This document shows, piece by piece, positions 1,073 through 27,295 of a DNA stretch of 64,000 nt. Within the stretch, counting starts at the first letter, position 1; the number at the start of each line of letters is the position of its first letter. The notes under the pieces were generated by a model. The model saw nothing but the letters and a program-made list of their open reading frames with translations, searched no databases and was not told where the DNA came from. The stretch lies in NCBI GenBank assembly GCA_002011125.2, contig MTMF02000009.1:62001-126000 (forward strand), in the 5' to 3' direction. Source of the DNA: Candidatus Hydrothermarchaeum profundi. GTDB lineage: Archaea > Hydrothermarchaeota > Hydrothermarchaeia > Hydrothermarchaeales > Hydrothermarchaeaceae. The position numbers and the translations under genes were made by a program.

Positions 1073-1159
1073 TTCATTTCCCTCCAGCTCACATCACATT
1101 TTACCTCTTTGAACTCTACCAGATGTCATAGCCCTGGATCTCCTGCTCGCATCATCAAC

Positions 1160-2005
1160 TCACAACCGTTTCTTATCTTGAGGCACTGGCGACCCTCCTA
1201 TGGACAACGACATCCCTTCCAGTTGGTCCTGCAATGACATAGGGTAAGAAACAAGGCACTCTGGCAGGAGTTTCTTAATCCTCGATTTCTCTTCCTCGGA
1301 GAATCTGTTGTGTTCGAGGTCTGGGCACCATATATCCTCGAGGTAGAGGCACTCAAGATTCTGCAGGTTGCTGATTTCATCAGGAAGGCTCCTCAGACGA
1401 TTGCACCTTAAATCAAGCGTCCAGAGATTTTTAAGCTCCCCTATCTGAGGGGGCAGCCTGCCCAGACGGTTTGAGGACAAGTCAAGATATTCAAGGCTTT
1501 TTAGTTTTCCGATATCCTCCGGGAGTTCTGTAAGCATATTATCCCTTAACAAGAGATATCTCAGTTCTCTGAGCTTCCACACATCCTCCGGGAGCTCCCG
1601 GAGTCCCAAGTCCCGCAGGTCAAGCATCACCAGATCCCTGTTCTCACAGAGCCCATCCAAGGAACTGCTATGCCTCGTGCCCAGGGCTTCTGGCATGCTT
1701 TTGTAACTGAAGTTCTGCACCCTTAACCTGTCGTCCACCACGATTTCCACTCTCCCCAGCATTTCACCGGGGCGATGAGACAAACCGTCTCTTGGTGTTT
1801 GAAACAACATAACACAGGTTGCGTCAACCTCCCATCCACCTTTAATCTTCCTCCGGTAGTCTATTTTTATACTGCCTAGATAATAAGACCCTTCCCCGTC
1901 TATCCGTATCCAACAGCAGTGCCTTCTCTCAAAGGGCAGGTCCTTCCAAAGCTCTTTATCTATCACATCAATTACGAACTCTACTGTAATGTCTTCCATT
2001 GCCAT
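1160..2005 (-). CDS. Leucine-rich-repeat protein
   Basis: The C-terminal half (about residues 127-245) holds roughly five 23-residue repeats of the L-x-x-L-x-L-x-x-N-x-L-x-x-L-P type, the common pattern of bacterial and archaeal LRR solenoids. The N-terminal 125 residues are a separate, mostly beta-predicted domain that I do not recognise. There is no signal peptide, so a cytosolic protein-interaction role is likely. An AGGAG site precedes two close ATGs (2005 and 1999). LRR proteins are patchy in archaea, so horizontal acquisition is possible. Confidence 0.75.
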   Translation of the reverse strand: MAMEDITVEFVIDVIDKELWKDLPFERRHCCWIRIDGEGSYYLGSIKIDYRRKIKGGWEVDATCVMLFQTPRDGLSHRPGEMLGRVEIVVDDRLRVQNFSYKSMPEALGTRHSSSLDGLCENRDLVMLDLRDLGLRELPEDVWKLRELRYLLLRDNMLTELPEDIGKLKSLEYLDLSSNRLGRLPPQIGELKNLWTLDLRCNRLRSLPDEISNLQNLECLYLEDIWCPDLEHNRFSEEEKSRIKKLLPECLVSYPMSLQDQLEGMSLSIGGSPVPQDKKRL

Positions 2006-2161
2006 CGCTTATTACCTAACTCCTGCGCTTTTAGAATAAATATCCTTTGCTATATCCCGAGGACAAATGTAAGGGTTCCCATCCCCATCCAACAGCCCTG
2101 TACAGTTTTCCAATCCTTTGAGTCATCCAAACCTTCCTTTAGAACCGTTAAAGTTCGACAG

Positions 2162-2172
2162 GTTTATAAATA
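2162..2172 (+). promoter_or_regulatory. TATA box for EF-1A-like gene
   Basis: An AT-rich TTTATAAATAT element sits about 35-40 bp upstream of the ATG at 2203. That gives a start site about 10-15 nt before the codon. It shows the EF-1A-like gene has its own promoter and is not the tail of a longer broken gene. Confidence 0.6.
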
Positions 2173-2202
2173 TTCAGACAGATATGTTGGACGGTAATTG
2201 AA

Positions 2203-2871
2203 ATGAAGTTGCCTGATGAACCTCTGAAAAAGCAAGAACCACAGAGCCAATCAGTTGCTTCTCAACTTCCACTAAGGCTAGTAGTACAGTATGTTATCAA
2301 CGCCGAGGAGGACGGAACCTTTGTAACCGGAAGAGTGGAAACAGGAACTGTGAAGGTCGGCGACAAAGTGTCTTTCGAACCAGCGGGGGTTAGTGGTGTA
2401 GTCACATCCATCTCCATGTATCCTGAAGACATAGAGAAGGCTGGACCCGGCGATGACATCGGCTTCATTGTAAAAGGCGTGAAGAAGGATGACATAGGGA
2501 CAGGCGATATCTGCGGTCCTATAAGCAATCCCCCAACTATTGCAAAAGAATTCACAGCCTCGCTACAGGTTATTGACATCCCAGACTTAATCGAAGTTGG
2601 GTACACCGCACTGCTGGATATTCACCAAGTACAGGTGACATGCAAGTTCGTGGAGCTTATATCTAAGCTTGATCCAGACACATTCGATGTCATTGAGAAA
2701 AACCCTGCCTCCCTCAAGCCACCCGATGTCGGCGTAGTGAGGATCGAGACCACACAGCCCCTGGTGGTCGAGAAATTCAAAGAAGTGCCATACCTCGGTA
2801 GATTCACTATAAGGGATATGGAAGCCCCTAACGAATTGGCAGTCACCGCGTTGTCGCCATTGGCTTTATAG
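2203..2871 (+). CDS. EF-1A-like domain II/III protein lacking the GTPase domain
   Basis: After a 22-residue polar leader, the 222-residue product reads as domains II and III of archaeal/eukaryotic EF-1 alpha. Domain II (about 24-110) contains GRVETGTVKVGD and PGDDIGF. Domain III (about 112-222) contains AKEFTA, the VGYT segment and LGRFTIRDM. In full EF-1A these two domains hold the aminoacyl-tRNA body and touch the G domain. Here the roughly 220-residue G domain with its Walker-type GTP motifs is absent, and a TATA box just upstream rules out a recent 5' truncation. It cannot be a canonical GTPase. It may bind tRNA or act as a decoy or regulator. GC content is higher than in the genome core. 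Function unknown. Confidence 0.85.
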   Translation: MKLPDEPLKKQEPQSQSVASQLPLRLVVQYVINAEEDGTFVTGRVETGTVKVGDKVSFEPAGVSGVVTSISMYPEDIEKAGPGDDIGFIVKGVKKDDIGTGDICGPISNPPTIAKEFTASLQVIDIPDLIEVGYTALLDIHQVQVTCKFVELISKLDPDTFDVIEKNPASLKPPDVGVVRIETTQPLVVEKFKEVPYLGRFTIRDMEAPNELAVTALSPLAL

Positions 2872-2958
2872 AAAATTGCTCCCTCTAAAACATTAGTCTA
2901 TGGCAGCCTTCGAAATAAAAACTTATACTGGGAACACTCAACTATAAAAGGCGAGATT

Positions 2959-3846
2959 ATGAAAGAGCAAATTCCCCCAGATAAGCCCGGACATGTCCCG
3001 GAGCAAAAGGTCATAGACCCCCTAACAGGTAAGGACATGACAGGAAAATATGTGTTGGACAAAAGAGAGGGATTCGAGACATGTCTGAGGGAAGTATTCC
3101 TAGAGATCGCCAGAAGAGCCTTCAATAGAGAAGAGAACATCGCCCGGGCGATGATAGAGAAGGCCCTCAAATGCCATAGGGAATACTTCCAGGCAATGAA
3201 AGGAGCCACAAACCTTCACCCAGAGAACATCAAAGATGCCGTCAAAGATGAGGAGAAACGGCAGAAGAGATTCTACGATGCCCTAGATAGACTCGCAGAA
3301 GAGTTCAAAAACTTAGGTGCCCGGTTCGAAGTAATGCCCCCTGACAAAGTGTATAAAGACTCTGGATGGAACACAGGACTTGTTCACGGCTGCAACATCA
3401 AGACTAATGGCACATACCTCTGCGCCTTCCCCCTGGTACCCGCAGTGACCTTCTGTTACCTAGCCCCAGTCCAAGAACCTGTTGCAGCCCAAGTGATCTT
3501 CGCAGACAATGACTGCGTTATACTGGCTCCCCACAGCCAAGACTTTGGAGATGCCTTCACCAAGGCTGCAGAGCGCATCTTCGGCATACCAGAAGATAAG
3601 AGGGATGACTTCCCCAAAGCCCAGAGGGCCTTTATCGGCAACAGCTTTCTCTCCTTGGTTTTAGAGGAATCCCTTTCATCCATCGAGCTGGAAGAATTGA
3701 GAAAGAAATACCGTGTTGTCGCCATCGAAAAAGGAGGCACAGAATTCACGGGGTACATATACACAGGAAAAGAGGATGAACTCCCAGCCCTCCTCAAAAA
3801 GGTATTTTTCCAGTGGCATTTCAACTTGAAGGTATTCGGAAGGTGA
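2959..3846 (+). CDS. Hypothetical protein, 295 aa
   Basis: Family not recognised. The product is soluble. Its N-terminal half (to about residue 125) is charged and helical. A mixed alpha/beta C-terminal region contains several Cys residues (around 145, 156 and 172), and no known catalytic motif is visible. A TATA-like element around 2924-2931 lies about 30 bp before the ATG, so the gene may have its own leaderless promoter. It is more GC-rich than most of the window, like its neighbours at 2203-2871 and 3869-4239, so the three may have arrived together. Confidence 0.6.
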   Translation: MKEQIPPDKPGHVPEQKVIDPLTGKDMTGKYVLDKREGFETCLREVFLEIARRAFNREENIARAMIEKALKCHREYFQAMKGATNLHPENIKDAVKDEEKRQKRFYDALDRLAEEFKNLGARFEVMPPDKVYKDSGWNTGLVHGCNIKTNGTYLCAFPLVPAVTFCYLAPVQEPVAAQVIFADNDCVILAPHSQDFGDAFTKAAERIFGIPEDKRDDFPKAQRAFIGNSFLSLVLEESLSSIELEELRKKYRVVAIEKGGTEFTGYIYTGKEDELPALLKKVFFQWHFNLKVFGR

Positions 3847-3868
3847 TAGAACGGTAGAAGAAAAAAAT

Positions 3869-4239
3869 GTGACATCCCTCCTCCGTGCCCTAGAGGAGGA
3901 GGACACCTTTGTGCGGCAGGAGGCCGCCTAGGCACTTGGAAGGCTGGGAGACGCCCGGGCAGTAGAACCCCTTATTAGGGCCCTAAAGGACAAGAACAGG
4001 GCGGTGAGAGCAGAGGCGGTCCAAGCCCTAGGAATGATAGGGGACGAATCTGCCTTAGAGGCAATAAAAGAGATGCTCAAGGACCCCGAGTCCATGGTCA
4101 GGGAGTACGCCCTCACAGCCCTGCGGCTTCTCGGGACCCGGGAAGCCATCAAGGCCCTGAAGAGCCACAAAGACCTCAGCAGGTGCGTCCGGGAGGAGCA
4201 AAGCTTGATATCTTGGAGAAGGAGAGGAAGGGCGGGTAG
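3869..4239 (+). pseudogene. HEAT-repeat (PBS-lyase-like) protein, broken
   Basis: Translation from the GTG at 3869 gives HEAT-like repeats of the V-R-x-E-A-A-x-A-L-G-x-L-G-D type, close to the PBS-lyase HEAT family. An in-frame TAG at 3929-3931 falls inside the repeat motif, where one base change from GAG would explain it. A one-base deletion near 4195-4200 breaks the frame again. Restoring it yields AKLDILEKERKGG and a stop at 4237. Two independent lesions make this a decayed gene rather than a recoded one. It starts 22 nt after the preceding hypothetical gene. Confidence 0.75.
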
Positions 4240-4367
4240 ACAATTAGGGGGTATCGCCTCCGCTTAGACTAAGGATACGATAAAGAAGAGGGTCTTTGAG
4301 GGTATTATTTACCATTTGGGTCTGATAATCGCAAGAATTATATTTTCTTATCCTGTAGGTTTTTCAC

Positions 4368-11066: not shown

Positions 11067-11462
11067 CTATATTAGTGTAGAGTCTTTAGATTTCTCAAGC
11101 ATGCATAACAGATGCCCAAAACACCCGAGGATAAAGTTGCTGGCCAAATGTGTTGCCCTTAAATGCCTAAAAAGAGTGGGGTAAATCCTCTTTCTTATAC
11201 CTGCTCTTTTCGCAAGGGTATGCGCTTTCATTACTTGCAGAAATGTTCTTGATTTGCAGAATAGCAAGACCAACGCTTTTTCCCTTTGTATCTCTGTAAT
11301 TCTTTTTTGAGTTTCCGCATCAATCTGTAATTGCTTTCCCAATTTCTTCGATAAGTTTCTAATTAAATCAAATTCGCTTGAAAGCTTCAATCCCTCATCA
11401 AAAGGAATTATCTCTATATTTTCGTTGATTATTAGCTCTTTATCCAGTTTACAGTATTTCAA
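11067..11462 (-). pseudogene. Tyrosine recombinase (integrase) fragment
   Basis: Only the segment around residues 85-112 resembles an archaeal tyrosine recombinase. AKRAGIRKRIYPTLFRH and LRATHLA correspond to catalytic box II (the HLRxTHxA region). The N-terminal core domain and box I Arg are missing. The catalytic Tyr region is also absent: the frame after THLA is the antisense of a different small gene (11101-11144). The fragment therefore cannot catalyse recombination and marks the remains of an integrated element. Confidence 0.6.
11101..11144 (+). pseudogene. Fragment of a small Cys/His protein gene
   Basis: From the ATG at 11101 the plus strand encodes MHNRCPKHPRIKLLA, closely matching the N terminus of the intact 67-residue protein at 12938 (MENSRCLKHPKIKLLL). 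The match ends where integrase sequence begins on the opposite strand, so this is the broken end of a second copy joined to the integrase remnant. Confidence 0.5.
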
Positions 11463-13345: not shown

Positions 13346-14200
13346 ATGATCTGCATAAAATGCGGTTTAACAAAAAGGGGTGAAGAAGATTTTTTCATTT
13401 GCGAGGATTGTAAAGATTTTTCGAAAATAGTAGATGACATTTATGCTGACATAGATACTAAGATGGAAACGTTGGAAAATATAGACCCCGATACAAACCC
13501 GATATTTCGGTTATTGTCTGATAGTTCATTTGTTACGGCACAAAATCCACAGACAGCGATTTTTTATAAATTATGTGAATTTATAGTCGCACGGGCATTA
13601 AATGGCGTTACCGAAATTACGGAAGATGAGCTTAATAGAGAAATAAGAACGACTAGGGCTTGGAGTGATGCATTTAAAGTTTTTGAAGAGTTAAATCTCG
13701 TTAAAGTAAAAACTGAAAAATATAGGAGAGTCTTAATTTTAACGGATAAAACTAAGAAATTCGCCAACCAATACTTAGACGGTGAACCTCTAAGTGAACA
13801 AATAAGAATTAGATTAGCTCACATATATGCGGGTTATGTTTTGTTATATATACTAAAAAAAATAGCGGAATTAGATAAAGAATATGATATTACAATGTTA
13901 CCTTATAAGCAAAGACCGAGAACATTGTGGACTATATTAATGTTCCTGTGGGCTACCGCATATAACGGGAGAGAGAAATTTACCGAAGAAGATTTAAGAG
14001 CATTCATTTCGAGGAGGAGAATTCCGTCCATAACGAGAGGGAGGATAATTAGGTCGCTTCAAACAATTGATGGAAAGTTCGTGCAAGGATTAATAAAAGA
14101 TATGAGCATCGTAGGTGGAAATATAACTTTTAAATTTGAGGATTATGTTATGGTAGAGATGGAAAGAGTTAGAGAAAGAATTAGAGAAAGGGAGAGATAG
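13346..14200 (+). CDS. Zinc-ribbon/winged-helix-like protein A of the ATPase operon
   Basis: First gene of the operon. From the ATG at 13346 the product (284 residues) starts with a zinc ribbon (CIKCG, then CEDC about 15 residues later). A winged-helix-like region (about 85-150) ends in a strand-turn-strand before LTDKTKKFA. A helical bundle follows, and the tail is RVRERIRERER. The last gene of the operon has the same layout: ribbon, wHTH-like region, helices and Arg/Glu repeat tail. A DNA-binding or adaptor role is inferred. Start choice: an upstream in-frame TTG exists, but the ATG immediately before the ribbon is more likely. Confidence 0.7.
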   Translation: MICIKCGLTKRGEEDFFICEDCKDFSKIVDDIYADIDTKMETLENIDPDTNPIFRLLSDSSFVTAQNPQTAIFYKLCEFIVARALNGVTEITEDELNREIRTTRAWSDAFKVFEELNLVKVKTEKYRRVLILTDKTKKFANQYLDGEPLSEQIRIRLAHIYAGYVLLYILKKIAELDKEYDITMLPYKQRPRTLWTILMFLWATAYNGREKFTEEDLRAFISRRRIPSITRGRIIRSLQTIDGKFVQGLIKDMSIVGGNITFKFEDYVMVEMERVRERIRERER

Positions 14201-14205
14201 TATAA

Positions 14206-14964
14206 ATGGAAATGAAAATCGATGATGAACTAGAAGTTGTCAGTGGAAGGACCTTGCCTGAGGTTGATCTTCTTCCTCAACTTAAAGAAATAGAAGGTAT
14301 AATATCAAGGACTTGCGAATATTTCTTTAAGGGGAATCTCGTGATGAAAAATTCACCGTTTAAAGGTTTTATATTAGAAGGGCCTCCTGGAACTGGTAAA
14401 ACAGAGATAATAAAACAAGTGGCTAGAAAATTAGATAGAAGATTACAAACAGTTTCTTTTTTGTTTGTTGATGGTGCGTCTATAGCAGCACCAAAATGGG
14501 GAGATGCTGAAAAAAAATTAAGAAGCATTTTTAGATGGATAAAGAAACAATCTAAAAATTCAAAATTATTAATTCTGTTTGATGACATTGAAAGTTTGAT
14601 GTTAACTAGGGGGACAGAACTAGCTAAAGAATGGCATTATTCGATTAACTCCATTCTTTTTCACGAAATAGACAAGCTCAATCCATACAAAGTTATTGTA
14701 TGTGCCACCACCAATCGCCCAGATTTAGTTGATGAAGCAATAAGAACAAGATTATACCCAATCCAAGCACCAAATCTACCATTAGATCAACTCATGATCG
14801 CTGTAAATGAAATTTTAGAAGCAAGCAATATGAAAAATGAAGATAAAAAATTCGTCGCTGAGAAAATCAAGGAAAAATTAAAGAAAATGGAAAATCCGAC
14901 AATAAGAGATGCACGACAAATAACTGTGATGGAATGCATTGAAAGGAGGTTGTGGTCGGTATGA
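14206..14964 (+). CDS. AAA+ ATPase of the six-gene operon
   Basis: A 252-residue single AAA+ module. It has Walker A GPPGTGKT (59-66), Walker B LLILFDD (121-127), sensor-1 Asn in CATTNRPD (170) and candidate arginine fingers at 180/182, then a short helical lid. The motifs resemble the Cdc48/FtsH/26S classic AAA clade rather than helicases or MoxR. A roughly 50-residue N-terminal extension replaces a substrate domain, so specificity probably comes from partner proteins. It lies 5 nt after the zinc-ribbon gene, and its stop overlaps the next ATG (ATGA). Likely a hexameric remodelling motor. Confidence 0.85.
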   Translation: MEMKIDDELEVVSGRTLPEVDLLPQLKEIEGIISRTCEYFFKGNLVMKNSPFKGFILEGPPGTGKTEIIKQVARKLDRRLQTVSFLFVDGASIAAPKWGDAEKKLRSIFRWIKKQSKNSKLLILFDDIESLMLTRGTELAKEWHYSINSILFHEIDKLNPYKVIVCATTNRPDLVDEAIRTRLYPIQAPNLPLDQLMIAVNEILEASNMKNEDKKFVAEKIKEKLKKMENPTIRDARQITVMECIERRLWSV

Positions 14965-15320
14965 TATTATTAGAGGAAGTTCCTAAAACTGGAATACTCA
15001 TTTTAACTGTATATTTTCCGATGGGCAAATACAAAGGATATTTTCAAAATGAGGCCAGAAAAAGATTGAAAGAGAAAATTCCTAGAATTGATGAAAAGGA
15101 AAAATTAGGGTTAGAGTTAGAACCTTTGCAATTCAGTCTTGTGAGAACTATTTCTGGAAATATTAGTAGAGCTGGAGGTGTGCAGTGGCAGTTCGGTTAT
15201 AAAAATATGACGCCCAAAAAATTTAAAATATTATACGAAAATATAAAAAGACTTTCTACTCCTGAGTGGTGGGGTAGTTTCGATGTCCTTATAGCGAGTA
15301 ATGTAGCGGGAGTAGATTAG
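14961..15320 (+). CDS. Hypothetical protein C of the ATPase operon, about 119 aa
   Basis: Family not recognised. The ATG at 14961 has a good AAAGGAGGT site 11 nt upstream and overlaps the AAA+ stop codon. A GTG nine bases earlier would sit on the ribosome site and is rejected. The product begins with a beta strand (KTGILILTVYFP), is basic and mixed alpha/beta, and has no catalytic motif visible. The tight coupling to the AAA+ gene suggests a direct partner of the motor. Confidence 0.65.
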   Translation: MILLEEVPKTGILILTVYFPMGKYKGYFQNEARKRLKEKIPRIDEKEKLGLELEPLQFSLVRTISGNISRAGGVQWQFGYKNMTPKKFKILYENIKRLSTPEWWGSFDVLIASNVAGVD

Positions 15321-15321
15321 T

Positions 15322-15450
15322 ATGGACGAATTTGAAAAAATCATTGATAATTTAGCTCGTGAAAAAGTGAATAAGAAAAAATTTGAAAAATTATTAAATG
15401 AAAGATTAAAAGAGATTAAAACAGATATTATAAAGGAGGCTTCTAGATAA
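15322..15450 (+). CDS. Small helical protein D of the ATPase operon, 42 aa
   Basis: A 42-residue, highly charged, all-helical peptide (MDEFEKIIDNLAREKV at the start). It begins one base after the stop of the preceding gene and ends exactly where the SMC-like gene starts. Its last codons contain the AAAGGAGG ribosome site for that gene. The heptad-like spacing of Leu/Ile/Phe suggests a coiled-coil clip for one of the ATPases. It could also exist mainly for translational coupling. Confidence 0.6.
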   Translation: MDEFEKIIDNLAREKVNKKKFEKLLNERLKEIKTDIIKEASR

Positions 15451-17394
15451 ATGGAAGCCAATTTATATATTAAAGATATTGGAGGATTAAGAGGAGAGAG
15501 GGTTTTTAAATTAAAAAAAGGAAAGTTAAATTTAATTGAAGCTTCAAATAGTGGCGGAAAAACTTCCGTTATAAAGGCATTAACTGCTGTTTTATCAATA
15601 CCTCCAGATGGTTATCTTGATTTATATACCGATAAAGAAGCTAGGAAACTTGGCATTAAAAGCGAAGAGCGTAATCCACAACAGGGATTTGTTAATATAC
15701 ATGCAAAAGAGGGAACTGTCAGATTAGAAATAAATGATAAAACTGAGACATATCGTGTCAAACAAAGTGGTGAACATATAGAGTTGCCACAAGAAGGGGA
15801 TCAAAGATTCCTCTTAGCTGGAATATTATCTAATGATAGTAGGATATTAAGACAACTAAGGGGATTAGATGAAGAATACGAACCCGAAGATTTTAAATGG
15901 GCAGTTACACAACTTTCATTTGCAAAAAATTACGATGAAATAAGGGACTATCTTCTGACTAAAAAAGAGGACCTATTAGAGAAAGAATATGCTGCAGAGA
16001 GAAAAATCGAACAATTAGCAAGTTTGGACATAGAACGGCAAAAATTGCTGAAGAAAAGAGATAAACTTGATAAAGAATTAAAAGAATTGGGAGCCAAATT
16101 TAAAGGTATTAAAGATCCTATTAGAAAAAGAAAAGACTTAACCGACAACATAAATAAATACGAAGAATTTAAAGGAAAAAAAATTGGAGAAATAAAAAAG
16201 AAAAAAGATGAAATAAAAAACTTAGAAAAGAAACTAAGTGTATTAGATAAAAAAATTAAAGAAAAAAACAAAGAATTAAAAAATATACAAATTGAAGCTT
16301 TAGAAAAAGAAAATAAGATAAAAAAGGAAGAAAATGAGGAAAAAATTACTAAACTTAAAGAAAAACGAAGCGGAATAGATGGTCTTCTAAATTTATTTGT
16401 AACTGCTCAATCTAGTTTAAGAGGAACATCCGAGGAGATTATTTGCCCTTTATGCAACGACGGAACTATAAGTTATAAGGAAGTTGAATCGAGATTAAAG
16501 GATTTGCGGGCTCAAAAGGACAAAATAAGTAGTGAAATTAAAAATCTAAATTTGGAAAATATTCGATTATCTCAGGAATTACAAAAACAAGTGGACTACC
16601 GAGATAAGTTAAAAAGGGAACTTCGTGATCTTGAAGGCGAAAAATATCATCTAAACAAAGCATTGAACGAACGGAAAATGGAATTAGGCCAACTACAATA
16701 CGATATAGAACAGCATAATCAAATGATTTCAAAATGGAAAAAACAGTTAGAGATTCTAAGAAGTAAAATTAGTTCAGAAGATGAGGAACTCGATAAACTA
16801 TACACCAAAAAAGAGAGAGAAAGAGCAGAAGTTTCAGTCCGTATAAGTGATATTAACCGAGAGTTAGAAGAATCTTCTATGGAAGTAGACGGAGATATAG
16901 TTGAACCAAAAATTGCTAAACAGATCTATGAGAAGTGGATTGAATATATCGAAAATAAAATAGAATTTACTAAAAAAAGAGCAGATGAGCAAAGACAAGA
17001 AGCTGCTAAGCAATTTAATGCTAATATAAATGAGCTGATGGCTGAATTAGGATTTAAAGAATTTAGAAATATTAAACTAAACAATAATTACCAATTATAT
17101 GTTGAAAGGCTTAAAGAAAAAACTGGAGAGTATGTTCCACAACAAGTTAAGAGCTTGAGTACATCTGAAAAATTGACAATCGCTATGATATTGCAAATCG
17201 CTTTAAAGGAAACATATCTCCCGAATACTAACTTTTTCATTTTAGATGATATAATCTCAGATTTTGATGAAGATAGAAAAAATATAGTATTAAATTACTT
17301 ATTGAACAAAGCTAAAGAAAAAGATTGGTTTATTGTAGCTACAAATCTGATTGAAGAAGATAAACCTGTAGAAATTCGATATTTTGGAGGGTAG
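15451..17394 (+). CDS. Zinc-hook SMC/Rad50-like ATPase
   Basis: A 647-residue ABC-type ATPase of the SMC/Rad50 class. Walker A is ASNSGGKT (31-38). Two long coiled-coil arms (about 165-320 and 340-510) meet at CPLC (332-335), a Rad50-type zinc hook almost exactly at the midpoint. The signature is SLSTSEKLT, and Walker B is FFILDD (595-600), followed by a conserved Asp and a switch-like ATN. It is shorter than true Rad50 (about 880) and no mre11 is adjacent. It resembles the archaea-specific SMC-related proteins. It probably dimerises to bind or tether DNA. It is in an operon with an AAA+ motor and zinc-ribbon proteins. Confidence 0.85.
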   Translation: MEANLYIKDIGGLRGERVFKLKKGKLNLIEASNSGGKTSVIKALTAVLSIPPDGYLDLYTDKEARKLGIKSEERNPQQGFVNIHAKEGTVRLEINDKTETYRVKQSGEHIELPQEGDQRFLLAGILSNDSRILRQLRGLDEEYEPEDFKWAVTQLSFAKNYDEIRDYLLTKKEDLLEKEYAAERKIEQLASLDIERQKLLKKRDKLDKELKELGAKFKGIKDPIRKRKDLTDNINKYEEFKGKKIGEIKKKKDEIKNLEKKLSVLDKKIKEKNKELKNIQIEALEKENKIKKEENEEKITKLKEKRSGIDGLLNLFVTAQSSLRGTSEEIICPLCNDGTISYKEVESRLKDLRAQKDKISSEIKNLNLENIRLSQELQKQVDYRDKLKRELRDLEGEKYHLNKALNERKMELGQLQYDIEQHNQMISKWKKQLEILRSKISSEDEELDKLYTKKERERAEVSVRISDINRELEESSMEVDGDIVEPKIAKQIYEKWIEYIENKIEFTKKRADEQRQEAAKQFNANINELMAELGFKEFRNIKLNNNYQLYVERLKEKTGEYVPQQVKSLSTSEKLTIAMILQIALKETYLPNTNFFILDDIISDFDEDRKNIVLNYLLNKAKEKDWFIVATNLIEEDKPVEIRYFGG

Positions 17395-17395
17395 G

Positions 17396-18202
17396 ATGAA
17401 TTGTCGAATTTGTGGCATTGAATTAGAAGATTTAACTTCAAAACTATGTAAAAAATGTGATTTAACATTATTTCAAATTTTAGATATCATAGAGATATAT
17501 GTAAAAGAAAAAAATCCTCCAGAGTGGCTAACTAATGCCGTGCAAGAGTTAGCATGGATATATCAGGCATATCCAAGGACTGCCGGATATTTTAACACAG
17601 CAGTTGAAATCCTCGAAATTTTTACTATTTTTGGGGCAAGTGAAATACCATTGAAAGAAATAAAAGAAGTCAATTATACTTCTCTCCCGACTAATAAAGT
17701 ACTCTCATTTCTAGAAGAAGCTCTATTGATCGAAAGAGATAATGAAGTAATACGGCCTGGAAAACTTACTAAAAAACTTCAAGAAATTAGGTGGGAAGGT
17801 TATAAAATGGATTCACCTGAAATGGAAAAAAAAATTTTAGAGATTCATGGAATTCTTACTGTTGCATTGACAAAATCATTGATTCAAACCGGATTTTATA
17901 TACCAAGAGGAGCATTAGCTATTTTTGATATGTTATCACATCATATCCTTACCAGCGGTAAAAAGATTGATCCGATACTTTCAAATTATTCTATAGATTT
18001 AGCAACAATAAAATTACCTATTAGGCAAAGACTTCGTTTGATACGCACTATGTCGGGATTTGTAAATGGTAAAACAAAAATTATTTCGGATAATACTGAA
18101 AAAGGAGAAAAACCACTCAAGCCGGTTATAATTAAGTATCTAGAAAAAGAATTTGAGAGATATAGAGAACGTGAAAGAGAACGTGAAAGAGAATTGCTTT
18201 AA
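17396..18202 (+). CDS. Zinc-ribbon/winged-helix-like protein F of the ATPase operon
   Basis: Last operon gene, with its ATG at 17396, one base after the SMC-like stop and with GGAGGG just upstream. The 268-residue product repeats the plan of the first operon protein. It has an N-terminal zinc ribbon (CRICG and CKKC), a middle wHTH-like region (about 80-135) ending in the LTKKLQEI helix, a helical bundle with IRQRLRLIRTMSGF (compare RGRIIRSLQTIDGKF in the first protein), and an ERERERERE tail. The two are probably divergent paralogues. Role inferred as adaptor or DNA-binding subunit. Confidence 0.7.
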   Translation: MNCRICGIELEDLTSKLCKKCDLTLFQILDIIEIYVKEKNPPEWLTNAVQELAWIYQAYPRTAGYFNTAVEILEIFTIFGASEIPLKEIKEVNYTSLPTNKVLSFLEEALLIERDNEVIRPGKLTKKLQEIRWEGYKMDSPEMEKKILEIHGILTVALTKSLIQTGFYIPRGALAIFDMLSHHILTSGKKIDPILSNYSIDLATIKLPIRQRLRLIRTMSGFVNGKTKIISDNTEKGEKPLKPVIIKYLEKEFERYRERERERERELL

Positions 18203-18270: not shown

Positions 18271-19557
18271 ATGGAAGAAAAGGAAAGTTCTGCAATAGCG
18301 TGGTTGCTCGAAGTTTCTTCAGTTTCTTCTAATAAATATATGGATATCGAGGCACCACAACTGGGTTGTAAAAAAATTATAGGTTCTAATTCGCCAGATT
18401 TTTTAGAGAAAATCAGAGAAGATTTTCCAGATATACATAAAGTTGCTAAGCGTAATTTTAAAAATTTAGCTGTTAGCTTTTCCGGCGGAAAAGATAGTTT
18501 AGTGGTTCTTGACTTAGCAGAGCGTGTGGGAATAAAAAAAGCTGTATTTTCGAATACAACTATTGAGTTTGACCAAACCGTAGATTACGTAGAGTTTTTG
18601 AACGATTTTTATAGTTTAAATATTGACATCGTAACTCCCCCACGTAATTTCTTTGAGTTAGTTGAAGACTTAGGATTCCCTTCTAGACGTTTTAGGTGGT
18701 GTTGTGAAGTAATTAAATTTGGACCTTTAGCAAAGTATGCTAGAGAGAATAACATAGATGGCTTCATCACTGGATTACGAAAAGAAGAATCCACTAGGAG
18801 GAAAGGTTATCAAAAGATAGACTATAATCCTGTTGTTCCTGTACCTCAGATAAATCCAATCCTAGATTGGTCGGAATCAGATGTGTGGAACTATATTAAA
18901 ACATATAAGTTACCATATAACCCTTTATATGATTATTTTGACAGGATAGGTTGCTGGTGCTGTCCTTATAGGACAAAAAAAGAGTGGGAAAAAATGAAAG
19001 CGATAATACCAGATAAAATTAAAAAACTTGAGGATAGGCTACAGAAATATGCTGAAAAACTAGGTATAGGTGATAAAGAGAAATTTATATATCAGTATGG
19101 TTGGACAGCTTGGACTCCTCCCTTAAAAAAAATAACAAGTGGAGTTTTTTATTCCATTAAAAATTCAAGTTCTGAGAGTATAGAAATTATATTTCTAGGG
19201 GACAGTGAAAGCCAGATAAATAAAATTAAAAATCTACTCTGGATTTTAACAGACGATTATGAAGTAATCGGAGAAGGCTATCATAAAAAAATCAGAATAA
19301 ATCTAGACGGACATCCAAGAAAAAAAATAAAGATTTTAATTGAAAAAGCATTAAATTGTATTAAATGCGGGGCGTGTACTGCGTTATGTGAGAGGAATGC
19401 TTTATATTTAGTAGATAATGGAATAAGCGTTAATCGGAAATTATGTACACATTGTTTAAAATGTTTGAACACTGGTAGTAAGAGTTCAATTAGAGGAGCT
19501 TGTATTGCTAGAAATTATCTCCGTAGTCGAAATACATTAAATCAACTTATAAAATAA
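18271..19557 (+). CDS. PAPS-reductase-family protein with C-terminal ferredoxin domain
   Basis: A 428-residue PP-loop enzyme. SGGKDS (71-76) binds the adenylyl group, RWCCEVIK (142-149) and GCWCCPYR (227-234) are the Cys-rich segments of archaeal PAPS-reductase relatives, and two ferredoxin-like clusters lie at Cys363/366/369/373 and Cys392/395/398/411. Full-length archaeal relatives often start with a zinc ribbon, which this protein lacks. Family members include true sulfate-activation reductases and tRNA- or DNA-thiolating enzymes (DndC, TtuA-like), so the substrate is open. It has its own TATA box and follows the SMC/AAA operon, and no cysteine desulfurase is nearby. Confidence 0.8.
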   Translation: MEEKESSAIAWLLEVSSVSSNKYMDIEAPQLGCKKIIGSNSPDFLEKIREDFPDIHKVAKRNFKNLAVSFSGGKDSLVVLDLAERVGIKKAVFSNTTIEFDQTVDYVEFLNDFYSLNIDIVTPPRNFFELVEDLGFPSRRFRWCCEVIKFGPLAKYARENNIDGFITGLRKEESTRRKGYQKIDYNPVVPVPQINPILDWSESDVWNYIKTYKLPYNPLYDYFDRIGCWCCPYRTKKEWEKMKAIIPDKIKKLEDRLQKYAEKLGIGDKEKFIYQYGWTAWTPPLKKITSGVFYSIKNSSSESIEIIFLGDSESQINKIKNLLWILTDDYEVIGEGYHKKIRINLDGHPRKKIKILIEKALNCIKCGACTALCERNALYLVDNGISVNRKLCTHCLKCLNTGSKSSIRGACIARNYLRSRNTLNQLIK

Positions 19558-19875
19558 AGATGGAAAATAGTTGGTTATGCGAAAAGTGTATTTTTATTCT
19601 CCTTTATCATCTATACTCCCTGGGTACTGGCGTATCCTCTAGGGCAGTCTTGAGGATGCTGATAGCTTTCTCCTTTATTTCTCTAAGACGCTAGTGTTAT
19701 GCTTCCTTTGACTCAACGGGATAGAGCAAACCTGTAAAGCTTCTCACTTCCTACCTTTAGAAACCTAGAATATGAAACTTTATCCCAAACTGAACGGTCT
19801 GTATAAGAATTTGTGGAACTCTGCAATCGAAACTCTTAAATATACATAATATATATAAATGTATACTATTTGTAT
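19558..19875. other. Intergenic stretch with a decayed minus-strand reading frame
   Basis: This 318-nt gap contains no intact gene. On the minus strand, 19750-19607 translates to two protein-like pieces (VRSFTGLLYPVESKEA, then RLREIKEKAISILKTALE) separated by TAA and TAG codons in the same frame, which looks like the tail of a decayed gene. The right end (19837-19865) is an AT-rich promoter region with ATATATATAA for the gene at 19876. Confidence 0.35.
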
Positions 19876-20088
19876 ATGACAAAAGATAATATTGTGCATA
19901 TTCGCTTGGAAGATTCACATAAAAAGTTGCTTGATGAATTCCAGCCTTACTTTGGAAATTCCACTGGTAAGGTAATAGTAAATTTAGCATTAAGATGGAT
20001 TGAAGCTAATTTAACTAACCCAAATATTGTAGAGCTAGCTAAGAAAAAAGCGATTAAGCTACAGGTGGGAGGAAGAGATAGTGAATAA
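19876..20088 (+). CDS. CopG/RHH-like DNA-binding protein
   Basis: A 70-residue protein starting at the ATG at 19876, about 25 bp after an ATATATATAA box, so leaderless. An upstream in-frame TTG is rejected for that reason. IVHIRLED (strand) is followed by two helices with the GNSTGKVIVNLALRWI turn, in keeping with ribbon-helix-helix proteins. The C-terminal tail is basic. The next gene overlaps its stop by eight bases, so they form a two-gene unit reminiscent of an antitoxin with its partner. Confidence 0.6.
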   Translation: MTKDNIVHIRLEDSHKKLLDEFQPYFGNSTGKVIVNLALRWIEANLTNPNIVELAKKKAIKLQVGGRDSE

Positions 20089-20392
20089 AAAAATTCCTAC
20101 GATCCAGGTAATAACCAAGAAAATTAATGTCAAGAAATTCATTGAGGACGAGTTCTATTATGACCGTAAGGAGAAGGAGATCAGAAGAGAGGTTAAGAGA
20201 AACGCTGACATCGTGATCGTCAATTTAAAGCCCGACCAGAAGATCAAGGACCTATGGGTGCTGGAGATGTTGTTGCATCTCCAACGTGAGTTCTCCGACA
20301 TAGTGATTATACCAGACTCGGATATGCCTATTGAGGAGCTCGAGGACTGGTTTGGGATATTCAGACCAAAGGAGGTATTGAAAGCCTGTTAG
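20081..20392 (+). CDS. Hypothetical protein coupled to an RHH gene, 103 aa
   Basis: It starts at a GTG inside the last codons of the RHH gene, with a GGAGGAAGA site upstream. The 103-residue acidic/basic protein has an alpha/beta pattern with a hydrophobic strand IVIVNL and a second strand IVIIPDSDMP, and no nuclease or kinase motif. It is not a recognised toxin family. The overlap suggests co-function with the RHH protein. Its 3' end overlaps the convergent DpdA-like gene by four bases. Confidence 0.55.
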   Translation: MNKKIPTIQVITKKINVKKFIEDEFYYDRKEKEIRREVKRNADIVIVNLKPDQKIKDLWVLEMLLHLQREFSDIVIIPDSDMPIEELEDWFGIFRPKEVLKAC

Positions 20393-21480
20393 ACCAGTTT
20401 TGAGAAAAACTCGTAAGCATAATATTTACTTTCTATGTATTGAAGGGCGGATTCTCTGGGATCATTTATCAGCTCTCTAAGTTTTTGGGATTCTCTATTA
20501 TACGCTACAGCCTCATGTGCTCTTGTGAAGTAAGGTTCTTGGCTATAATTCTCTATGATGTCTATCATTGTATACCTTCCGCAAAAAGGACATTCACAGT
20601 AATCAGACAAATACAAATCCCTGCCCTCATTCAATTCTGCCATAAACCCCCATGGATAGGTCCCGTAATCCGTTGGATTATAGTAGCGATGCCGTTCCAT
20701 AGCGGTCTTTTTACTTGGAGCACCTCTGCCGAGTTTCACGGGAAAGCTGATCGTATCGATTCCAAACCTATTAATACCGATGCCAGGGGTTCCATCTCTC
20801 TCAATAAGCTTATAACTTCTTGGAGTTGAAAACGAGTGAACCCAGACCTTCTTTTTTTTGTTTTTCCTTAGCAGATCTCTAACACCGTAAAGGAGTCTTT
20901 TTATTACTCTCTGCTCTCTCAGATTAACGCCTACACAGTCAATCCAGTTCATCTTCTTGTTAATCAAGTCAAAATCACTTTTTTTACATGCAACGGCCAT
21001 TATCGGCCTTCCGCCTCCATATCTCTTAAAATACTTAATACCACTAATAAGGGCTTGTGAATAATTCTGGTTGTTGAAAAAATTGGGGATTTCTAGGACT
21101 TGAGCATTTGATTCAACTTGAGCTTTCAACAATTTTTCCAAAGTCATTTGATTTAGACTAGTAATGCTTCTGGGGAACTCGAAATGGATAATTCTAGTAT
21201 TTACAGACTCATCTAGTATTTTATTGTTTAGAGCTTCCTTGAAATACTCAAACTTACTATCATCCCTAAGTTGTACAGTCAGATCCTTAGTAATCCAATT
21301 AACCTGCACACCTAAGTTCCTTAAAGGACTAAACGCTGTTCTTGTAATAGGATAAAATTTTTTGATAGAAGTTATATCAGTCTGAGTCAAGAAGTTTGTA
21401 GGAGTTTTGATTTCAAAGCCGCCTATATTTAAGATACCGCTACGGCCGCCTTGTTCGGCCGCAACCACATCGAACAACAT
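20389..21480 (-). CDS. TGT-superfamily protein, DpdA-like
   Basis: A 363-residue protein with TIM-barrel features of tRNA-guanine transglycosylases. FEIKTPTNF sits near the N terminus, GGGRPIMAVAC in the barrel, RFGIDTISFP (239-247) at the position of the TGT GVDxFD strand, and a zinc site is at Cys295, Cys297, Cys300 and His322. The usual Asp after GID is replaced, and the length is well below archaeal ArcTGT, which has extra PUA domains. This fits DpdA, which inserts 7-deazaguanine bases into DNA. No other dpd gene is adjacent, so the DNA-modification role is inferred from family resemblance. Confidence 0.65.
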   Translation of the reverse strand: MLFDVVAAEQGGRSGILNIGGFEIKTPTNFLTQTDITSIKKFYPITRTAFSPLRNLGVQVNWITKDLTVQLRDDSKFEYFKEALNNKILDESVNTRIIHFEFPRSITSLNQMTLEKLLKAQVESNAQVLEIPNFFNNQNYSQALISGIKYFKRYGGGRPIMAVACKKSDFDLINKKMNWIDCVGVNLREQRVIKRLLYGVRDLLRKNKKKKVWVHSFSTPRSYKLIERDGTPGIGINRFGIDTISFPVKLGRGAPSKKTAMERHRYYNPTDYGTYPWGFMAELNEGRDLYLSDYCECPFCGRYTMIDIIENYSQEPYFTRAHEAVAYNRESQKLRELINDPRESALQYIESKYYAYEFFSKLV

Positions 21481-21828: not shown

Positions 21829-23217
21829 ATGGAGCCCGAATCCATGAAAGAAACAAGCCCCACAGAGAGAGATATAAGATTTAACGGTGAAAAAGATTTC
21901 TCTAAAGAGCCTGGGAAAAGTTATACCGCTAGTTACAACTTTAAGACCTTCACCTCAAAGATTAGAATTGAGGAGAACAAGAAATCCAGATCTAAACACA
22001 CCGAATATGCTGGCCTTCTTGCTGTAGCAGGGGCTTGGGAAGCTCTAGAGTTAGATCAGCATATACGAGAAGCGGGGATAGTTAAGAAGAGAGGGCATCC
22101 TGCTGAGAGCTTAACTTTTGCCTCTGTAGTAAGACCTTTGATAGAGGCCAAGTCCACGTTGGCGATGAGCGAGAAGCTAAAGAATGACGATTTCCTGACC
22201 AAGTTACGCTTCGGGTCCCCACCTGATCAGCGGACTCATAACAGGTTCATCCAATCCTTAAATCTAGATCAGATAAATTCATTGAATAATTTAGTTGTCC
22301 GAGAATTGCAGAACTTCAAGAAATGGAGGGCCAAGAAAGATGGGTTTTTACTTGTTGATCTCACTGCTATTCACGTTCATGGAAAAAATTATGAGAACGT
22401 AAAGAAGCTCTATGATGCATCATTAGAGAAAGTGGTTACCGGCTATGAACCAATGGTTTTATCATATACGGATGGACATAAATTCTATCCAGTGGCCTTT
22501 CTTACTCAGGAGAAAAAGACAGACTCATTGCCCTCACTCATAAAGAAGTCTTGGAACTTTTTAGGCACTAAGGTAAACAAAATTGTATTTGATGGCGGAT
22601 TCTATAGCATTCCTTTGTTTAACGAGCTGGATGATATGGGCATAATCTTTGTCACCAAGCCTAGGAAAAACTCCCAAGTCTTTTACGGAATCCATATGCT
22701 GACCTTTGAGAAGCTTTCAACCGAGTGGATAAAGAAAGTCAAGTATTCCCGAAAATATGGGTGGCGTTATGCAGAATGGAAGGCATATTTGCCGAGATTT
22801 GGTGAAATCAAAATTGTAAAGCTACTAGATAAAAATCAAGAAGTATTGCTCATTACTAATGACGAAGATATGCCAGCAGAGGAGGTTATAAAGGCCTACA
22901 AGATGCGCTGGCAAACAGAGACAATGTTCAGAGAGTGCAAGCAGAATCTCGGGCTAAACAACCTGCCTACTGGCAAGTTCTCGGGGATTATAGCTCATAT
23001 CTTCTTTGTCTTACTAGGCTACATACTAATATCCCTTTTTAAGAGGGTTGAGAAAGACTTTAACGGTAGAAGCATCTCCACAATTATAAGAATGCTTATC
23101 AGGGTGACCGCAGATATTATAAGGAGTGGAAGGGAGATCGTGGTCTCGATAGTGTGTGGGTTCAAATATTACTATCTCCTCTTCACAGAAAGATTGCGTA
23201 GTCTATTAGAAAAATAA
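21829..23217 (+). CDS. IS4-type DDE transposase
   Basis: A 462-residue transposase. DDE catalytic residues are Asp177 (FLLVDLTA), Asp255 (IVFDGGFY) and Glu364 inside Y-(2)-R-(3)-E-(6)-K (Tyr357, Arg360, Glu364, Lys371), the IS4-family signature. The C terminus carries hydrophobic stretches as in related archaeal elements. The frame is intact. The stop is only 15 nt before the start of the RNase J-like gene, whose ribosome site fills the gap, so there is little space for a right terminal repeat. A left-end hairpin overlaps the start region. I did not find matching inverted ends or a target duplication. Confidence 0.85.
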   Translation: MEPESMKETSPTERDIRFNGEKDFSKEPGKSYTASYNFKTFTSKIRIEENKKSRSKHTEYAGLLAVAGAWEALELDQHIREAGIVKKRGHPAESLTFASVVRPLIEAKSTLAMSEKLKNDDFLTKLRFGSPPDQRTHNRFIQSLNLDQINSLNNLVVRELQNFKKWRAKKDGFLLVDLTAIHVHGKNYENVKKLYDASLEKVVTGYEPMVLSYTDGHKFYPVAFLTQEKKTDSLPSLIKKSWNFLGTKVNKIVFDGGFYSIPLFNELDDMGIIFVTKPRKNSQVFYGIHMLTFEKLSTEWIKKVKYSRKYGWRYAEWKAYLPRFGEIKIVKLLDKNQEVLLITNDEDMPAEEVIKAYKMRWQTETMFRECKQNLGLNNLPTGKFSGIIAHIFFVLLGYILISLFKRVEKDFNGRSISTIIRMLIRVTADIIRSGREIVVSIVCGFKYYYLLFTERLRSLLEK

Positions 23218-26177: not shown

Positions 26178-26660
26178 ATGGCCAAAATTAATGATGCTCC
26201 TCCAGAGATATTCAAAGCGGATAATTTATTACAAAAAATCTTAAAAGAAGCAGAGCCTGCAAAAGACATGTTATTGGAGAGGCTTCGCACTTTACCACGC
26301 TACGAATCACACTTAGATGCTCCTTCTTTACCGGGTGTCTATGTGATATGGGATGGAAAGAGGGTGGTTTATGCTGGTAGCTCAGGACACGGGGAAAAGA
26401 CTGGTCTTAGGCAAAGGCTCTATAGGGTATTAAAACGCACGGGGCTGAGTCCTTTGAGGAAAGGCATAGCTAGAGACATAGGCCATCCAGAATATCAACC
26501 TAAGTCGAGAGGCCCAAGAAATCCAGAAATCGAGGAGAAAATAGACGATAGAGTTAGCTCATTGGTGTTTTCTTATATTGAAGCTAGTGATAGTAAATCT
26601 GCAAGGAATTTGGAACGCCTCATTATATCGCTTCTGGATCCAAAGTATAATAAGGGATAG
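26178..26660 (+). CDS. GIY-YIG nuclease-domain protein
   Basis: A 160-residue protein. The GIY-YIG core begins at about residue 52 with PGVYVIWDG, then VVYAGSS, the LRQRLYR helix with its conserved Arg, and a C-terminal catalytic Glu in ARNLERLIISLLDPKYNKG followed by the conserved Asn. The family includes homing and repair endonucleases and stand-alone nucleases. The N-terminal 45 residues are helical and may give specificity. TATA-like CTTATATACG (about 26090-26099) lies further upstream. The next gene also encodes a nuclease-like fold. Confidence 0.75.
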   Translation: MAKINDAPPEIFKADNLLQKILKEAEPAKDMLLERLRTLPRYESHLDAPSLPGVYVIWDGKRVVYAGSSGHGEKTGLRQRLYRVLKRTGLSPLRKGIARDIGHPEYQPKSRGPRNPEIEEKIDDRVSSLVFSYIEASDSKSARNLERLIISLLDPKYNKG

Positions 26661-26755
26661 AAATTCCTTAAGATCTAGTTGACGGTTCCATTAAATTTCG
26701 AAAGGAACCATAAAGACGAAGAGGTGATTAAAAGATTTAAAAGGGGCGAAGGGAG

Positions 26756-27295
26756 ATGCCAAAGGAGTCAGAATGGCATAGAGAAGTTCGAGGGAAAATC
26801 GAGCGACATTTAAAGAACAAAAATATTAAATTCAAATCCTCGCATTCCGGGGTCAAAGTCCCCTTATTTATAGACTTTAGTGACACTTCTAGGAGTAACC
26901 AATTGTCAGATGCAGATTTCATAATAATAAAAAACAAAACAATAAAATTCATCATTGAAATTGAGAAAGGGGCACCGACCCCAAAAAAGCTTATGGGTAT
27001 TATAACGGCGGCCAATCTCTCAACCGCTTATAAAAGACAGGAAGAAAAATTCAAGATTCAAAATGCAAAATTGTTCATAGTAACGGGAGATAAGGAGACG
27101 AATAAAATGAATAAACCTAAAAGCAAGAAGCTAGAGCAGTACCACAATATCAAGAAACATCTTAAATTGACCAAGGGTTCTCTGGTAGGGTTTGACATAC
27201 TTACACTTATGGGCAAAAAAGATTTAGAGAAAATATATAGCGAAATAGACAGCATTATAAAAGTACCTCTGAGAAAAGAAGACAAAATGCCCTAA
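26756..27295 (+). CDS. PD-(D/E)XK nuclease-like protein
   Basis: A 179-residue basic protein. The central segment around LSDADFIIIKNKTI and KFIIEIEKGAP has the Asp-(about 15)-Glu-x-Lys spacing of PD-(D/E)XK nucleases, with catalytic Asp near 53 and Glu-Lys near 69-71. Beyond that fold suggestion I cannot assign a family. It follows the GIY-YIG gene on the same strand by 95 nt and precedes an RHH gene, so it may be part of a small restriction-like or toxin-like cluster. Proposed from motif spacing only. Confidence 0.45.
   Translation: MPKESEWHREVRGKIERHLKNKNIKFKSSHSGVKVPLFIDFSDTSRSNQLSDADFIIIKNKTIKFIIEIEKGAPTPKKLMGIITAANLSTAYKRQEEKFKIQNAKLFIVTGDKETNKMNKPKSKKLEQYHNIKKHLKLTKGSLVGFDILTLMGKKDLEKIYSEIDSIIKVPLRKEDKMP

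Follow-up and report, generated by a model that had tools for sequence, protein, structure and literature searches.

A 64,000-nucleotide stretch of the Candidatus Hydrothermarchaeum profundi genome (contig MTMF02000009.1, positions 62,001 to 126,000; hereafter the window) carries a cassette of seven genes in which an SMC-like (structural maintenance of chromosomes-like) ATPase and a CDC48-like AAA+ ATPase are joined by an enzyme of the PP-loop/PAPS (phosphoadenosine phosphosulphate)-reductase family, two paralogous ribbon proteins (z1 and z2) and two small proteins (u119 and p42). From the conservation and linkage of these genes, their motifs and the folds predicted for their products, we infer that they may form a complex with roles in modification and defence. 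Our best explanation, to which we give an even chance, is that the seven genes are a laterally moving genome-conflict (defence-type) unit, linked to modification and akin to the DNA sulphur modification systems Dnd, Ssp and BREX-4. Phosphorothioation specifically is a more tentative candidate for the product of the cassette. Text searches of the open-licence literature found no description of it.

A seven-gene block recurs in distant archaea

The first six genes lie on the + strand within 13346-18202, separated by gaps of 1-5 bp or overlapping, in the order z1, AAA+, u119, p42, SMC-like ATPase and z2. The AAA+ and u119 genes overlap by 4 bp (ATGA; u119 ATG at 14961) and the ATG of the SMC gene touches the p42 stop codon, which argues for a single transcript. 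The original prediction, made from the letters of the window, described a six-gene operon; all six open reading frames (ORFs) are present and spaced as described, and a seventh gene on the same strand, which begins 68 bp past z2 and encodes the PP-loop enzyme (18271..19557), had been missed. As predicted, the region is AT-rich, with a GC content of 0.29-0.36 vs about 0.40.

The prediction had proposed asking whether the AAA+, SMC-like and ribbon proteins are conserved together, and they strongly are. The arrangement z1-AAA-u119-(p4x)-SMC-z2 with a PP-loop gene occurs in eight compact loci (window, L005, L021, L017, L018, L033, L035 and L036), whose hosts are the window's own genome, two Archaeoglobaceae, G249, G130, two Thermoplasmata and one 'Actinomycetota' contig; two more loci (L027 and L028) agree in content and are cut by contig ends. 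Since distant phyla share the entire block, the cassette is not a chance assembly, and because flanking genes vary among loci, the conserved unit is the cassette itself.

Among about 100 related genomes, the sole other full-length relative of the SMC-like protein was in G028, where z1, AAA+, u119, a 45-aa peptide, SMC and z2 are accompanied by a divergent PP-loop gene adjoining z1. A search with an AAA+ profile extended the set to G441, G249 and G130, and a scan of GTDB contigs gave Archaeoglobaceae metagenome-assembled genomes (MAGs; L032, which is the G441 contig, and L034, the G028 contig), Thermoplasmata (L028, partial, L035 and L036) and Euryarchaeota S2_100 (L027). G130 is probably Methanohalobium evestigatum, and its second contig carries an ASRP (archaea-specific SMC-related protein, the family discussed below) at pMETEV01 coordinates. 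The contig from the Actinomycetota MAG (L033; 12.5 kb, GC 35%, z1 ORF truncated N-terminally) may be mis-binned. The 139-kb contig of a Dehalococcoidia MAG (L031) lacks z1 and has an ASRP, the AAA+ gene and a z2-like protein. By eye, these genes adjoin bacterial housekeeping genes, which suggests a real transfer of an 'archaea-specific' SMC-related protein into bacteria.

Of the 14 rows in the cassette SMC clade, 13 have a linked PP-loop gene, vs 1 of 19 rows outside it (Fisher p 3e-7, with rows that are not independent and with some outside-clade loci on short contigs, where its absence is less certain). PF01507 genes number 1-6 per genome; four Asgard genomes have just one, and it is the cassette-linked copy. 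The Asgard label for the phylum of G113 is our reading of gene content. Carriers are rare: in the class to which G249 belongs, one genome of 115 and, for the AAA+ subfamily, 6 of 394 archaea, two of them with operons that lack the PP-loop gene. Neither subfamily nor cassette was found in the listed order-level relatives of the window's genome (G000), and ASRPs of every type occur in 15 of 195 genomes of the Asgard-type phylum. Lateral transfer fits this patchy distribution together with an SMC tree that is discordant with the hosts.

A first alternative is that the cassette is a maintenance or segregation module that stabilises an integrated or plasmid-like element rather than attacking invaders. 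By eye, a serine recombinase, a transposase-like gene and genes resembling ParA surround the G028 cassette, and a tyrosine integrase lies near the G130 cassette. Against this, the genes around the G249 and E-plasma copies look by eye like ordinary chromosomal ones, the cassette is not accompanied by any conserved gene for replication or partition, segregation gives no obvious task to a PP-loop enzyme, and the cassette SMC and AAA+ subfamily had no match on plasmid, phage or viral contigs. We therefore regard a segregation module as quite improbable.

The seventh gene encodes a PP-loop enzyme of the SspD/BrxP/DndC kind

The seventh protein (428 aa) has a PAPS-reductase core (PF01507, 1e-39) followed by a C-terminal ferredoxin domain (Fer4). 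Searched against Pfam (reporting at E<=0.1), NCBIfam and PADLOC, the libraries used for the window cassette proteins, it matches BrxP at 1e-53, SspD at 9e-19 and DndC at 9e-10; BrxP and a subset of SspD proteins share its core-plus-ferredoxin layout (PMC12839542). It carries the motifs SGGKDS, RWCC and GCxxCP and the C-terminal ferredoxin cysteines, as do most cassette PP-loop proteins. This motif set is that of SspD/BrxP-type sulphur-transfer enzymes and is found too in a plasmid locus of the Ssp/BREX-4 kind (L123, with DUF4007, a class V aminotransferase and a helicase). The window protein lacks the catalytic-cysteine motif of assimilatory PAPS reductases, ECGLH, which none of the 13 cassette copies has and which is present in two other G130 loci (L126 and L127), so we rejected an assimilatory identity.

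The SMC-like ATPases form a separate clade of the ASRP family

The original prediction had called the SMC-like protein (15451..17394, 647 aa) Rad50-like with a CPLC hook at its midpoint. The hook stands, at residues 332-335, and the family is instead that of the ASRPs: the protein matches NCBIfam NF045487 with E 1e-81 and has the ASRP layout of an N-terminal Walker A (NSGGKTS), the mid-coil zinc hook, a C-terminal signature (LSTSEK) and Walker B (FILDD). Its 275 bits, like the 298 of the G028 protein, fall below the model's cut-off of 300, whereas the G249 and G130 proteins exceed it at 371 and 355. Identity as Rad50 or DndD was rejected since the ASRP score is far higher; no DndD profile in NCBIfam or PADLOC matched at E<=0.1, and the best matches were ASRP and LmuB.

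In all eight compact cassettes the catalytic glutamate of Walker B is replaced by D, N or G (Asp in the window), whereas coalescin, ASRPs of the RdfA type and most of the others keep E there. Because this residue is replaced, ATP hydrolysis by the cassette SMC is probably slow. The cassette sequences group as a single clade (support 99/97) in a tree built from SMC heads, with the window and G130 as sisters (97/92); coalescin (ClsN), ASRPs of the RdfA type, chromosomal Asgard ASRPs and those of PP-loop-free operons fall outside it.

The prediction of an AAA+ ATPase held for the second gene (14206..14964, 252 aa; PF00004 at 5e-23, Walker A GPPGTGKT, Walker B FDDIE), and a motor role on DNA was not supported. 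The protein belongs to a distinct CDC48-like subfamily of classic AAA proteins and is more likely a remodeller of a protein or complex than a motor on DNA.

Neither z1 (13346..14200, 284 aa; start ATG 13346, alternative in-frame TTG 13337) nor z2 (17396..18202, 268 aa) has a convincing match to a Pfam, NCBIfam or PADLOC family. They are paralogues over their full length (hhalign 99.2%, E 1e-19), z2 being the second ribbon protein that had been expected. The z1 model (pLDDT, the predicted local distance difference test, 87.6) shows an N-terminal CxxC/CxxC ribbon followed by two winged-helix-like units, in keeping with the zinc-ribbon/winged-helix description first given to it. Among the families listed in a fold search, z1 had weak matches to single winged-helix DNA-binding proteins, none full-length; its tandem winged helices invite comparison with KITE-type proteins, of which ScpB and MAGE appeared only as very weak matches. 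RdfA was rejected as a homologue of z1 or z2, there being no profile relation.

The same searches yielded nothing convincing for u119 (14961..15320, 119 aa) or p42 (15322..15450, 42 aa). The former is kept in PP-loop-linked cassettes and duplicated in some, and is modelled (pLDDT 81.5) as a ferredoxin-like beta-alpha-beta-beta-alpha-beta fold with generic S6/ACT-like matches. DndE consists of two ribbon-helix-helix domains (Rakesh et al., PMC10853773), so u119 modelled in this way is not DndE. Two forms of it, u119A and u119B, show no detectable homology to each other, and u119 as a universal partner of ASRPs, coalescin included, was rejected: small proteins encoded beside ClsN scored at most 2.7% (hhalign) against u119 profiles. 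Homologues of p42 with 43-49 aa fill the matching slot elsewhere, two of them outside the profile seed (E 1e-8 and 9e-13), so this short ORF, as first proposed, is real.

These features bear on a second alternative, a complex for chromosome organisation or cell architecture, in which the ASRP would act like coalescin or Sph3, z1 and z2 would be DNA-binding or kleisin/KITE-like, the AAA+ protein would be a loader, and the PP-loop enzyme would modify tRNA or protein and merely be co-regulated. The ASRPs studied to date act in chromosome organisation (ClsN) or cell shape (Sph3-RdfA) (PMC9389158, PMC10869688). The tandem winged helices of the z1 model and the existence of chromosomal Asgard ASRPs with a small partner (L105-L110) also favour it. 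The cassette is nevertheless patchily distributed, laterally transferred, surrounded by conflict-type neighbours and tied to the PP-loop gene, its SMC clade stands apart from ClsN, RdfA-type and chromosomal ASRPs, and RdfA is unrelated to its ribbon proteins; on balance we find an architectural role unlikely.

The cassette differs from described systems

Judged by its recognisable genes, the cassette belongs to none of Dnd, Ssp, BREX-4 and Lamassu. Like Dnd (DndA-E), it unites a PP-loop enzyme of the DndC superfamily, an ABC ATPase that has a coiled coil (DndD in that system) and a small partner, and its variants L070, L100 and G734 have a DndB-like DGQHR protein. It differs in that its ABC ATPase is an ASRP and by no profile DndD, its u119 is predicted to be ferredoxin-like with no DndE-like gene recognised in the window cassette, DndA is absent, and a CDC48-like AAA+ protein and two ribbon/winged-helix proteins are added; the PP-loop enzyme, of the same superfamily as DndC, is closer to BrxP and SspD. 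With Ssp and BREX type 4 it shares an AAA+ ATPase, a multi-winged-helix protein as the likely recogniser and a PP-loop enzyme of the SspD/BrxP type whose C-terminal domain is a ferredoxin. Its AAA+ protein is, however, CDC48-like and not of the SspC/BrxC (ORC/Cdc6) type, it has an SMC-like ATPase, and profile searches recognised no SspC/BrxC ATPase, DUF4007 or PglZ/BrxL among the window cassette proteins.

Coalescin ClsN and Sph are likewise zinc-hook SMC-like ATPases with an NF045487 match, but the cassette SMCs are set apart by their clade, their fixed gene set and the substituted glutamate. Yoshinaga et al. (2022), who discovered the ASRPs, described their gene neighbourhoods as without consensus (PMC9389158). 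The Sph3-RdfA pair of Haloferax also places an ASRP beside a CxxC-motif protein, without an AAA+, u119 or PP-loop gene. Finally, LmuB of Lamassu (3e-14 for the window SMC) and IetA of IetAS are among the best, weak PADLOC matches of the SMC-like and AAA+ proteins, but the partner genes LmuA/LmuC or IetS were not recognised.

Variant loci pair the core with changing modification enzymes

The Asgard loci L071, L099 and L100 retain the AAA+ gene, two u119 copies and the SMC gene, with the PP-loop gene inside the stretch in L071 and L100 and just past it in L099. In L099 (G734) and L100 (G796) a large operon adds HerA-like, DpdA-like TGT (tRNA-guanine transglycosylase) and DUF5591 (archaeosine-synthase-type) proteins, and L100 also has a DpdB-like protein (7e-29); these operons look like a combined DNA-modification system. 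The extras of L071 are a C5 cytosine methylase and an HhH-GPD glycosylase, and in L070 (G372) a DGQHR protein (PF14072 DndB 8e-15, DpdB 1e-19) lies between the PP-loop and u119-SMC genes. Because the pairing of PP-loop, SMC and u119 repeats while the modification enzymes change, we argue that the cassette handles DNA marks.

The same loci raise the possibility that the system modifies bases (7-deazaguanine or cytosine type), with a QueC-like or other role for the PP-loop protein and no entry of sulphur into DNA. The C5 methylase of some Asgard variants and the DpdA-like TGT, DUF5591 and DpdB proteins of others support it, but by profile the compact cassettes, the window's included, carry none of these enzymes, the window's TGT-like neighbour (20389-21480) has no profile support, and the matches of the PP-loop protein are to SspD/BrxP/DndC and not to QueC. 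We consider base modification of this type very improbable.

Several neighbours are of the conflict type and fit a defence role: an integrase and an MkoA/DpdJ-like helicase at L018, SMODS and NucS-like genes at L027, the serine recombinase and ParA-like genes (by eye) of G028, and at L070 a DUF1156-methylase and DUF499/HmaC/SspC-like genes, beside a PglZ-like gene. At L101 the neighbours are HerA, NucS-like and Schlafen-type genes and a borderline match to NurA. A role in defence or element conflict, as the original prediction read it, is thus consistent with the patchy occurrence, lateral transfer and neighbourhoods, while the likely chemistry lies in the SspD/BrxP/DndC-type gene that it omitted.

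Other loci carry parts of the set. At L113, outside the cassette SMC clade, a different ASRP is paired with a BrxP-type PP-loop protein. A second ASRP operon family without a PP-loop gene (L019, L020, L023, L024, L025, L102, L103, L104, L111 and L112) has a protein in the z1 position, AAA+, a small protein (u119B or unassigned) and SMC. In L105-L110 (family f181) the ASRP is chromosomal, its surroundings are conserved and its partner, of 125-131 aa, is related to u119B (hhalign 92.5%); this may be a domesticated form. A stand-alone AAA+ gene of the cassette subfamily without SMC occurs in Archaeoglobi JdFR-42 (L022, 9630-10430 / L030, 4213-5013), inside a hydrogenase-maturation cluster (hyp-like, by eye). 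Next to the L033 cassette, at 1125-4267, are an AAA_5 protein and one of 458 aa whose McrBC/PDDEXK_7 signal is sub-threshold; the two may be a type IV restriction pair resembling McrBC.

Surroundings of the window cassette

Profile searches of the window operon found no nuclease, as predicted, and the operon contains no cysteine desulfurase. The integrase remnant proposed at 11067-11462 was rejected: it has no Pfam match at E<=0.1, and no convincing att-type repeats were found. Convergent with the cassette is a 363-aa ORF (20389-21480, - strand) with, by eye, a TGT-like N-terminus and a CxCxxC...H zinc pattern; a TGT identity was not supported by PF01702, hhalign against the L099/L100 TGT or phmmer against the PDB. 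Before it lie a 72-aa ORF that is ribbon-helix-helix-like by eye and a 103-aa ORF (19870-20392). A DDE transposase follows at 21829-23217 and, past it, two ORFs (26178-27295) that by eye resemble GIY-YIG and PD-(D/E)XK nucleases; lacking Pfam support, these were rejected as restriction-like genes. On another contig of the same assembly, a gene with a TGT match of bacterial strength (G000:C8:6827-7873, 487 bits) could be a transfer or contamination.

A possible mechanism

In the published model of sulphur modification, DndD-DndE or SspC-SspB scan DNA and the PP-loop enzyme adds sulphur (PMC10853773). By analogy, z1 and z2 would recognise DNA sites or an SMC-bound intermediate through their ribbon and tandem winged helices, and a zinc-hook-bridged ASRP dimer, probably slow at hydrolysis and with u119 and p42 as small subunits, would clamp DNA. 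The CDC48-like AAA+ ring would load or strip the clamp, and the PP-loop/Fe-S enzyme would modify the DNA, most likely with a phosphorothioate or another sulphur mark. Chromosomal stand-ins for the sulphur donor are reported for Dnd systems. Here a chromosomal cysteine desulfurase might supply the sulphur, and one of the six aminotransferase-V (PF00266) matches in the window's assembly could serve. The complex would then act on DNA according to its modification state, with any nuclease recruited from outside the cassette.

Besides the published roles of ASRPs, several observations weigh against such a modification-linked unit. The operon carries neither a cysteine desulfurase nor a nuclease, the Dehalococcoidia member lacks the PP-loop gene, DndB and DpdB are absent from all compact cassettes, and the PP-loop proteins of L035/L036 and L070 are shorter and lack the ferredoxin domain, those of L035/L036 also lacking RWCC. 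Chromosomal archaeal PP-loop proteins of the PRK13795 type, outside cassettes, share the cassette motifs, which therefore give the class of the enzyme and not DNA as its substrate.

Our most far-reaching proposal, which is rather doubtful as it stands, is that the cassette would be a third architecture, mainly of archaea, for defence by modifying DNA with sulphur (or with another product of a PP-loop enzyme). An SMC-type clamp impaired in hydrolysis and a CDC48-like AAA+ ring would together take the place of DndD-DndE or SspC-SspB, alongside a related family of ASRP operons without the PP-loop enzyme. If right, it would unite an SMC-type clamp and an AAA+ ring in one modification system, and ASRPs would gain a role in a conflict machine beside those in chromosome organisation (ClsN) and cell shape (Sph3). 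Archaeal defence beyond CRISPR and restriction is poorly charted (PMC12988326), and the cassette as read here predicts that archaea with it have a concrete DNA mark, which can be measured, and a defence phenotype. Because the conserved cassette links an ASRP clade with an enzyme of the DndC/SspD/BrxP type, a CDC48-like ATPase and winged-helix adaptors, it makes the question of the ancestral function of ASRPs testable.

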